A stretch of DNA of 41,133 bases, taken from a virus. This document shows, in pieces, positions 1,646 through 4,202 of the stretch; position 1 is the first letter of the stretch, and each line of letters opens with the position of its first letter. The position numbers and the translations under genes were made by a program. Under the pieces are notes generated by a model that did not search any database, was not told the DNA's origin, and saw nothing but the letters and a program-made list of their open reading frames with translations. The stretch is taken from IMG/VR virus record IMGVR_UViG_3300026382_000033, positions 1 to 41,133 of that record; one strand, written 5' to 3'.

Positions 1646-3013
1646 ATGGAAACACAAATGTTAACAGAAAAATACGCTGATATTTTAGAATCAGCAAAGA
1701 TGCCAGCAATCAAGGCTAGCGAAAAATCAAATGTTGCACTTTTACTTGAAAATCAAGCACAAGAAGAAGCAAGATTAATGACAGAGGGAACAATTGCATC
1801 AGATGTTGCACAATTCACTCCAATTTTTATGCCTTTGGCAAGAAGAATTCAACCAGCACTTATTGCTAATGAATTAGTTGGTGTTCAACCACTTACAAGT
1901 CCTACTGGATTTATTTACACACTTGCATTTAGATATACAGGTATGGGTGCTAATGCTGCTGATAAAACTGGTGGTAGAATTTCACCAATCGCGGGTTCAC
2001 AAATTATTGAAGTAGCTGTTACTGGTACTGCTCCAGTTAAAGGTGATACTGTTAAAGTTGGCGCTGCTACTGCAACTGTTATCTATGCTGAAGAAAACTT
2101 TTTCTTAATCGATGGTAAAATTGGTTCTGCAACTGCTACTCTTAATGATGCTGCAGATAATGAAATAGGTACTATCAAAGTTACTTATTCTAACGAATTA
2201 ACATTCAGAAAAATCTTAAAAGGTTATACTGGTTCACTTCCAACTTCAGAAGCAGAATTACTTGGTTATGATATGTCAGAAATCGGTTTCGATATCATTC
2301 AAACACAAATTGGTGTTGAATCAAGAAAACTTAAAGCAGAATATACTGTTGAAATGTACCAAGATTTAAAAGCAATGCATGGTCTTAATGCTGATGAAGA
2401 ATTAATGAATATGATGGCTGTTGAGATTCAAAACGAACTTGATAGAGAAATTGTTGATAAAGTAAATGCTTGGGCTGCTCCAGCAGGTGACTTTAAAATT
2501 GGTGGTGTTGATGCATCTGGTTCAGCTAGATTCGAATTAGAAGGTATGGCTCACTTACAACTTAAAATTGCTAATGAATCAAGAGAAATTGCTAGACTAA
2601 CAAGAAGAGGAGCTGGTAATATTTTACTTGTGTCTCCAAAAGTTGCTACAGTTTTAGAACAACTTAAAGGTTACAAAGCTATTGAAAATTCTACATCTGT
2701 AGATGCTACGGCAGTTGGTGTTGCGGTTATTGGAACATTCAATAAAATGAAAGTTGTTATGGATGCTTTTGCTACTACTGATTATTGTACAGTAATCTAT
2801 AAAGGTTCTGACAGAAGAGATGCTATCGGTTACTACGCACCGTATGTACCAGTTTCTTTCACAAGAGTTGTTCACCCTGAGTCAGGGCAACCGGCTATAA
2901 TTCTTAATACAAGATACGGAATTAAAGAGAATCCAATGAACTCTAAAGATACTCAAGGACTATATGCTAGAACTTTTCAAGTTGATTTTTCTGACAGCCT
3001 TTTAAGTAAATAA
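1646..3013 (+). CDS. 23: Major capsid protein, gp23-like
   Basis: Main shell protein of the head (HK97 fold, T4 family). It has 455 residues, shorter than T4 gp23 (521). The N-terminal region (about 1-47) is a delta-type extension with ENQAQEEARLMTEG near 35-48; cleavage after Glu47 by the gp21 homologue is plausible. The segment VAQFTPIFMPLARRIQPALI, then LTSPTGFIYTLAFRY, is characteristic of gp23 proteins, as are IGVESRKLKAEYT and the C-terminal ENPMNSKDTQGLYARTFQVD. A beta-rich insertion at about 125-180 looks like a surface domain. Base composition is less AT-rich than neighbours and codon use is more uniform, as expected for a highly expressed gene. Confidence 0.95.
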   Translation: METQMLTEKYADILESAKMPAIKASEKSNVALLLENQAQEEARLMTEGTIASDVAQFTPIFMPLARRIQPALIANELVGVQPLTSPTGFIYTLAFRYTGMGANAADKTGGRISPIAGSQIIEVAVTGTAPVKGDTVKVGAATATVIYAEENFFLIDGKIGSATATLNDAADNEIGTIKVTYSNELTFRKILKGYTGSLPTSEAELLGYDMSEIGFDIIQTQIGVESRKLKAEYTVEMYQDLKAMHGLNADEELMNMMAVEIQNELDREIVDKVNAWAAPAGDFKIGGVDASGSARFELEGMAHLQLKIANESREIARLTRRGAGNILLVSPKVATVLEQLKGYKAIENSTSVDATAVGVAVIGTFNKMKVVMDAFATTDYCTVIYKGSDRRDAIGYYAPYVPVSFTRVVHPESGQPAIILNTRYGIKENPMNSKDTQGLYARTFQVDFSDSLLSK

Positions 3014-3075
3014 TCTTAGGATTATTGCTTAAATTGAGTAATTAAGTCATAGTTAGTTATACTATAAAATAACAA

Positions 3076-3107
3076 GGAGGATGAGAGTTCCTCCATCTTA
3101 TATTTTT
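3076..3107 (+). terminator. Probable terminator after the capsid gene
   Basis: GGAGGA (3076-3081) pairs with TCCTCC (3089-3094) around a 7-base loop and is followed by ATCTTATATTTTT. It is the first stable hairpin after the gp23 stop at 3013. The T tract is offset by several bases, so it may be leaky and allow read-through into the HNH gene. Confidence 0.5.
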
Positions 3108-3164
3108 ATATATACTATATTTTGTTCGTCGTGGTTCTGGGATATAGTATATATAAAAATATAA
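3098..3164. repeat. 23-bp perfect inverted repeat carrying the late promoter
   Basis: Bases 3098-3120 are the exact reverse complement of 3142-3164, leaving a 21-base loop (3121-3141). The right arm contains most of a TATAAATA late box (3160-3167) and repeats the extended promoter element found before gp23. The loop itself contains bases that pair with 3183-3194 downstream, so the whole can form a pseudoknot in a read-through RNA. Confidence 0.85.
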
Positions 3165-3220
3165 ATAAAATAAAAAGACAAACAGAACCACGACCTCCGT
3201 TTGTCTTAAACGGAGCGAAC
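3124..3220 (+). promoter_or_regulatory. Ribosome-site-sequestering leader of the HNH gene, with late promoter
   Basis: GTCGTGGTTCTG (3128-3139) pairs with CAGAACCACGAC (3183-3194). CTCCGTTT (3195-3202) pairs with AAACGGAG (3208-3215). GTTCG (3124-3128) pairs with CGAAC (3216-3220). Together these make a three-way junction. The only Shine-Dalgarno (GGAG, 3212-3215) lies inside the second stem, 6 bases before the ATG at 3222. A competing stem, AGACAAAC (3176-3183) with GTTTGTCT (3199-3206), would free it. TATAAATA (3160-3167) should start late transcripts near 3173, which would lack 3124-3139. T4 I-TevI is known to be held silent on long transcripts by a comparable hairpin that contains a late promoter; the switch here is inferred. 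Confidence 0.7.
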
Positions 3221-3221
3221 A

Positions 3222-4202
3222 ATGAGACTACTACAATATAAACACTCAAAAATTGACTATAATAAGTTAAAAACAAATAAAACATATAGAAAATCTGTAA
3301 TAAACAAATTGAAGTTTTGGTATTTTTATAATGAATATAATGAAGAAACAGCTTTTTACTGGCTGTATAAAGATATAAAAAAGAGAAACCAAATACATAC
3401 TTATATAAAATACTTCAATATAAAATCACAAATTTTTAAGAATAATAGAAGTGCATCTGAGTATTTTTATACTAAAATTCATTCAAAAATTTGTCCTGAA
3501 TGCAACAAAAAATTTGTGCCTACCAAAAAGAAAGGAATATGTTGTTCTTCGAAATGCGCAAACAATCATAAAACAAAAGATATAAATTTCATATTAAAAT
3601 TAAGTCAAGGCGTCAAGGCATCATGGGAAAATCTTAGTGAAGAAGATAGAAATGAGAGGAAGCACAATATATCAAAAGGAAATAAGAATTTTTATAGCAA
3701 TCTATCAGAACAAGAATATAAAGAATTTTGGGATAATTGGAACAAATCTTATACAAAAACTTGTCATCTAAAGTATGGCTATTGTAGTTATTTTGCTGTG
3801 CCTGAACATATTAATTCTTTTAAGGAAAAAAGAAAACAAACAAATATATTAAGGTATGGCGGTCCAGCCCCAATTTGTTCAGAGGCAATAAAAGATAAAG
3901 TTAGGAAAACATTGAGGAAAACAAATGAAGCATCTGGTAAATGGATAAAACAAGAAGACATTTCAGACTTCAAATTATATTCAAGGATAGTAAGAAAACT
4001 AACTGAAAAACAGCCGATTCACTTATTAGAAAATTTTGATAAAAGAGGGACAGTAGATAAAGAAGATGCCTATCACCTTGACCATAAAATTCCTGTTAAA
4101 TATGGTTTTGATAATAATATTCTTCCTTATATAATAGCAGATATAAAAAATTTAGAAATGATACCTGCAATAGATAATATAAGGAAAGGCTCTAAATATT
4201 AG
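3222..4202 (+). CDS. Free-standing HNH homing endonuclease
   Basis: Predicted site-specific DNA endonuclease that spreads its own gene into phages lacking it. It has 326 residues. A zinc-ribbon-like segment lies near 90-115 (CPECNKK and CCSSKC). A DNA-binding region of short helices includes TNILRYGGPAP and EAIKDKVRKTLRKT, as in NUMOD-type modules. The C-terminal HNH core is YHLDHKIPVKYGF with His285, Asp287 and His288, then KNLEMIPAIDNIRKGSK with Asn310, Asn319 and Lys322. Such genes sit next to highly conserved phage genes, here gp23. It is more AT-rich than gp23. No intron boundaries are evident in gp23, so it is best called free-standing. Confidence 0.85.
   Translation: MRLLQYKHSKIDYNKLKTNKTYRKSVINKLKFWYFYNEYNEETAFYWLYKDIKKRNQIHTYIKYFNIKSQIFKNNRSASEYFYTKIHSKICPECNKKFVPTKKKGICCSSKCANNHKTKDINFILKLSQGVKASWENLSEEDRNERKHNISKGNKNFYSNLSEQEYKEFWDNWNKSYTKTCHLKYGYCSYFAVPEHINSFKEKRKQTNILRYGGPAPICSEAIKDKVRKTLRKTNEASGKWIKQEDISDFKLYSRIVRKLTEKQPIHLLENFDKRGTVDKEDAYHLDHKIPVKYGFDNNILPYIIADIKNLEMIPAIDNIRKGSKY

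Follow-up and report, generated by a model that had tools for sequence, protein, structure and literature searches.

How the translation of a homing endonuclease gene (HEG) lodged directly downstream of a phage major capsid gene might be controlled, and whether the RNA leader between the two genes exerts this control, are the questions raised by the window, i.e., the whole stretch of DNA analyzed here, a virus contig of 41 kb (41,133 nucleotides) from IMG/VR. The window carries a T4-type head gene cluster, in which genes encoding a gp21-like protease and a gp22-like scaffold protein are followed by the gene encoding the gp23 major capsid protein (1646..3013, plus strand; Pfam PF07068, E=3.8e-93). 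According to gp23 DNA comparison, its nearest named relatives are Firehammervirus Campylobacter phages; the relatives compared below are metagenomic contigs throughout. Downstream of gp23 lie, in this order, a terminator-like hairpin (3076..3094, plus strand), whose T-rich tail extends into the left arm of the leader, the leader itself, and a gene (3222..4202, plus strand) encoding an HNH homing-endonuclease-like protein of 326 aa (PHROG 5104, E=2e-16; PHROG 3339, "homing endonuclease", E=3e-7) with a C-terminal HLDHK motif, in agreement with a preliminary description of this DNA, which had placed a homing endonuclease here. A terminator-like hairpin is likewise found immediately 5' of the leader in L020, L039, and L041.

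The leader is composed of segments on the plus strand that can pair in alternative ways. A left arm, L (3098..3120), and a right arm, R (3142..3164), form a perfect inverted repeat of 23 bp, the loop of which contains segment A (3128..3139), the exact complement of segment B (3183..3194), located after an 18-nt linker between R and B; the A:B duplex comprises 12 bp. Segment E (3195..3202), the anti-Shine-Dalgarno arm, forms 8 bp with segment F (3208..3215), which buries the Shine-Dalgarno sequence GGAG (3212-3215). The inverted repeat, the loop pairing, and the hairpin burying the ribosome site had all been proposed in the preliminary description and are present as proposed. The competing stem was also recognized there, but it is longer by one pair, comprising 9 bp rather than 8 between C (3175..3183), the 5' end of the predicted late RNA, and D (3199..3207). 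Since D overlaps E, C:D and E:F are mutually exclusive. The T4-type late promoter, too, was correctly located, its -10 box TATAAATA occupying 3160..3167, and T4 spacing predicts a transcription start at about 3173. A second copy of TATAAATA is comparably placed about 30 nt 5' of the gp23 start (1610-1617). All late promoters are predicted from the T4 motif and spacing, and the window contains 19 copies of TATAAATA versus 11.8 expected, so the motif by itself is weak evidence. On the minus strand, C:D together with a preceding A-run (3175-3207) resembles an intrinsic terminator for leftward transcripts, and those of the minus-strand genes converge on it.

The 201-nt region has a predicted folding energy of -47.3 kcal/mol (z = -5.7), which none of 200 shuffled sequences equaled. 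The predicted energies are -20.2 kcal/mol for the A:B duplex, -9.5 kcal/mol for the C:D hairpin, and -9.3 kcal/mol for the E:F hairpin, and when A:B is enforced, the nested fold reaches -45.3 kcal/mol with E:F formed. Given the 18-nt linker, L:R and A:B could arguably coexist as a pseudoknot. In RNA starting at 3173, the minimum-energy fold is C:D, and the predicted cost of opening the Shine-Dalgarno sequence is 0.9 kcal/mol with C and 6.6 kcal/mol without it; the folding comparison suggested in the preliminary description therefore points the way it anticipated, toward a ribosome site that is cheap to open in the predicted late RNA and closed in the absence of C. All window-like leaders show a shift in cost of the same sign, the difference being small in L020b, L052, and L087. 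Opening in the predicted late RNA is partial, the Shine-Dalgarno sequence being unpaired with a probability of 0.30 in the window and 0.13 in L020a.

Searches of IMG/VR with gp23 and the nuclease identified the leader in L014 (near-identical), L016, L017, and L020, in each of which a related HNH gene (71-93% identity) lies 3' of it, while L015, L019, and L021, close gp23 relatives with no nuclease at this site, contain a plain terminator and no leader. The L:R, A:B, and C:D helices, and largely E:F, are kept through compensatory changes in homologous leaders, as revealed by eight leaders aligned with MAFFT without reference to structure. Considered together, L:R, A:B, and E:F are paired in 90.8% of cells and include 18 pairs changed on both sides, compared with 7.1 in shuffled alignments (0/500 as high) and at most 6 in slid controls; conservation by compensating changes was the feature on which the preliminary description had made its own reading depend. 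For individual helices, 94.9% of L:R cells are paired, with 8 pairs altered on both sides, the two A:B halves are paired in 90.9 and 92.5% of cells, with both sides altered in 8 of the 12 pairs, and E:F is paired in 79.7%. C:D is paired in 91.7% of cells, and its double-sided changes affect 3 pairs and 8 cells (versus 3.9 cells when shuffled; 0/500). For the whole structure, no observed measure was reached by more than 2 of 500 shuffles, and all slid controls were far lower. The 5-bp closing stem GTTCG/CGAAC, which is present in the window as previously reported, is unconserved in the relatives (65.6% of cells paired versus 65.1% shuffled), and the exact closed three-way junction built on it is thus unsupported.

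We consider it probable that the leader is a two-state RNA element controlling translation of the mobile HEG and that, in the window, the state is set by the promoter from which the RNA originates. The late promoter sits between A and C, and an RNA made from it would start at C and lack A; C:D would then form, E:F would be broken, and the ribosome site would be exposed. In an RNA reading through the gp23 terminator, L, A, and R would all be present, the L:R stem would display A in its loop, and A:B would keep C off D, leaving E:F to bury the Shine-Dalgarno sequence. Such an arrangement would probably guard against excess nuclease synthesis from the capsid operon, which is strongly transcribed. 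The sequences themselves establish the helices and their conservation, the sense-strand bias described below, the overlap of D with E, and the positions of promoter and terminator, and from these we infer the start site near 3173, which of these RNAs exist, and the effect on translation; a precedent is provided by T4, where ribosome-binding sites (RBS) are buried on long HEG transcripts (PMC2988022, PMC3014915). Since gp23 is itself a late gene, the contrast in the window would be between own-promoter RNA and gp23 read-through RNA and not between late and early RNA, a point on which the preliminary description has to be revised.

The leader is not confined to the gp23 locus. A topology scan of 536 kb revealed 17 combinations of an inverted repeat with loop-to-tail pairing, 12 of them with a Shine-Dalgarno sequence and an open reading frame (ORF), compared with means of 1.6 and 0.1, respectively, in Markov-resampled sequence. 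The same chain of helices, spelled with different letters, occurs 3' of a tail-sheath-like gene in L039, L041, L015/L048, and L052, whereas the divergent L030 and L031 carry it 3' of gp23, with a C-to-A change in A matched by a G-to-T change in B. Further leaders precede nuclease genes in L082, L087, L090, L091, and L095. In total, about 50 differently spelled copies of the design are found in related phages ahead of many unrelated nuclease genes, including those encoding HNH, GIY-YIG, and Vsr-like endonucleases.

Several of these loci have features of their own. L020 (4050-5480) contains two copies of the gp23 3' end, terminator, and leader. The endonuclease encoded first terminates in NFSDSFLK, the C-terminal residues of gp23, and the second leader, arranged in tandem, is followed by a broken Vsr-like endonuclease gene, an arrangement resembling the scar left by homing or by a tandem insertion. 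In L044 (640-2268), an N-terminus related to that of the window endonuclease is fused to a Vsr-like domain and the leader is absent; the start codon overlaps the upstream ORF stop, which suggests translational coupling instead. Long ORFs without Pfam matches lie behind leaders of the same architecture at L014:655-2956, L095:7391-9290 (minus strand), L115:612-2021, and L087:11170-12624. They share paired motifs reminiscent of the family-A/T7-like polymerase palm (ELDLGSAAQ..HLHDA, EFDLENAAP..VHDG, EVDIKGSQV..VHDA, and SYDINTSLY..NHDE); the L014 ORF additionally encodes a C-terminal HNH homing-endonuclease domain, and a single-sequence structure model gave no reliable fold (pLDDT 34).

A larger sister group, referred to as type 2, differs in the position of the promoter. 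Here the late promoter precedes L, so that the entire element is downstream of it, and transcription is predicted to start on C (AUAAGAG), which is complementary to D (CUCUUAUAA); D doubles as the anti-Shine-Dalgarno arm and pairs with F. The pattern of promoter, C, and D alone retrieved 41 distinct cores from IMG/VR, and because it fixes C and D, conservation of C:D in this set is not independent evidence, while L:R and A:B are. At least 10 L:R pairs and at least 7 A:B pairs are present in 37 of the 41 cores; the pair sum is at least 22 in nearly all, and a sum of at least 20 was reached by none of 820 shuffles. All 37 A segments differ from one another, and A:B consists of 361 Watson-Crick and 11 G.U pairs. 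On contigs with several leaders, the mean pairing energy is -15.8 kcal/mol between A and B of the same leader and -5.9 kcal/mol between A and the B of a neighbor. Proteins encoded 3' of the leaders have PHROG matches to homing or HNH endonucleases, some also with NUMOD3 or GIY-YIG Pfam domains. Among GTDB cellular genomes, the pattern gave five matches, four without L:R and A:B and one in a phage contig within a metagenome-assembled genome. Boxes resembling a -10 element at the end of R in type 2 leaders were checked by eye and rejected as inconsistent. L145 (minus strand, near 3459), on the same contig as L209, has an inverted L-R loop in which A and B are direct copies, making it a natural variant without A:B.

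Because each type 2 RNA contains the full set of segments, promoter choice does not explain everything, and loss of the left half through promoter position is not the general mechanism. With both state-determining halves always present and the ribosome site closed in the nested prediction (by a mean of 4.3 kcal/mol), a trigger may be required for the open state. Type 2 could thus be a bistable element alternating between three tandem hairpins (C:D1, A:B, and D:F; closed) and a three-way junction (C:D, L:R, and B:G; open). Extended to the leader as a whole, this gives the most serious rival to promoter-of-origin control, namely a co-transcriptional timer or factor-responsive switch in which nuclease synthesis is timed by conversion of the fold or by a bound protein. 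It gains from type 2 being the larger group, with all its segments downstream of the late promoter, and from the finding that no upstream anti-C marks read-through RNA there (5.08 versus 5.00 shuffled). The type 2 segments also follow one another with little or no linker sequence, CTCT (D1) precedes A in 32 of 37, the A:B fold lies 4.6 kcal/mol above the minimum, with the constrained open and A:B folds both within about 4-5 kcal/mol, and the short B:G helix has weak support (3.80 versus 2.89 pairs). However, the promoter in type 1, the window-like arrangement, seems purpose-built to exclude A, we know of no ligand or protein partner for the leader, and the balance between folds is uncertain with Turner energies that omit coaxial stacking and kissing loops. 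We therefore regard a timer or switch as a rather unlikely, though credible, account of the leader.

Two further explanations deny that the RNA works as a whole. If the repeats functioned as DNA, as a cruciform or as a recombination or nuclease target, the RNA fold would be incidental; the palindromes are perfect, and the inverted loop of L145 is the expected product of recombination or template switching between the arms. Nevertheless, when the helix search treated G.U and A.C alike, type 2 helices contained far more sense-strand G.U than A.C (23 to 3 in L:R, 7 to 3 in A:B, and 25 to 2 in D:F), which indicates selection on the coding-strand RNA. Moreover, the helices always end at the Shine-Dalgarno sequence, and D:F and C:D overlap the ribosome site, so a role at the DNA level alone appears very improbable. 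Hardly better is the prospect that the parts act separately, with L:R serving as an RNase III site or terminator that detaches gp23 mRNA, C:D as a leftward terminator, and E:F as an ordinary RBS hairpin. A double strand of 23 bp would suit RNase III, and C:D with its T-run does score as a terminator on the minus strand, on which genes converge here. Yet this would leave A:B unexplained, though it is kept while its letters change, and the sense-strand G.U pairs in C:D of L039, L041, and L020b correspond to A.C mismatches on the minus strand. Control of HEG translation by a two-state leader, with promoter of origin as the determinant in the window, therefore remains our preferred interpretation.

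The element appears to be undescribed. None of the 4227 Rfam families gave a match at the gathering score in 141 kb of family loci; sub-threshold matches of the window to RUF1 and Phe_leader fell far below gathering and were rejected. Topology scans of T4, Aeh1, NCTC12673, F379, CP220, and Vibrio SRILMA yielded at most one match each, none with a Shine-Dalgarno sequence and an ORF, the type 2 pattern is absent from six named phages, and the window leader, used as a DNA query against INPHARED, gave chance matches only. No description was found in the literature, although literature coverage was partial and this is weak evidence. Phage CP220 (NC_027997, at about 141946) has an inverted repeat of 26 bp whose loop, TACGCGTCTT, is the complement of AAGATGCGTA, immediately 5' of the hypothetical gene gp161; a Shine-Dalgarno hairpin was not seen, and the repeat is possibly a distant member in a cultured phage.

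Muffling of HEGs by RNA hairpins was previously known in a few T4 cases, whereas the device described here is far more elaborate and widespread, accompanying unrelated nuclease genes and persisting though nearly every base has changed. Its roughly 50 natural variants could be used to test how selfish genes limit their own expression and to study how an RNA chooses between two folds according to where transcription starts.

Among known systems, the closest are T4 I-TevI, I-TevII, I-TevIII, and segB and Aeh1 mobE, whose leader structures bury the RBS and whose late transcripts escape by lacking sequence needed for the inhibitory structure (PMC2988022, PMC3014915). The window leader resembles the I-TevI/mobE type in burying the RBS of a HEG in a long RNA, in having a late promoter at the structure, and in belonging to T4-like phages; a HEG lies directly downstream in both the window and its relatives, and E:F without C holds GGAG in a stable hairpin. 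It differs in that the predicted start at 3173 precedes the two arms that form the RBS hairpin (3195-3202 and 3208-3215), as the preliminary description had noted; since both arms stay in the predicted late RNA, the leader works like the I-TevI/mobE type but is not a member of it. Opening is instead assigned to the alternative stem C:D, governed by A:B and the long L:R. The translation-initiation hairpins of T4 e, soc, and 49 similarly place the Shine-Dalgarno sequence or start codon in a helix on transcripts from upstream, but these are not HEG leaders, and the L:R/A:B/C:D chain is not described there (PMC3014915).

Attenuator-type leaders with 1:2, 2:3, and 3:4 pairings and translational riboswitches likewise employ mutually exclusive helices with anti-Shine-Dalgarno and anti-anti-Shine-Dalgarno logic. 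The window leader shares this logic but differs from them in that no ligand, upstream ORF, or sensor is apparent and Rfam has no matching family. Taken together, the leader is a real control element, apparently a form of T4-type translational control of HEGs and a candidate RNA family, whose members combine L:R, the pairing of loop A with tail B, C:D opposed to the RBS hairpin, and a HEG, without the closing stem. We see about an even chance that it represents a structured regulatory RNA of a novel class, namely a leader both modular and bistable, spread across unrelated HEG families in T4-like phages, re-spelled in nearly every copy, pairing with itself in preference to its neighbors, and timing or gating the translation of a selfish gene.
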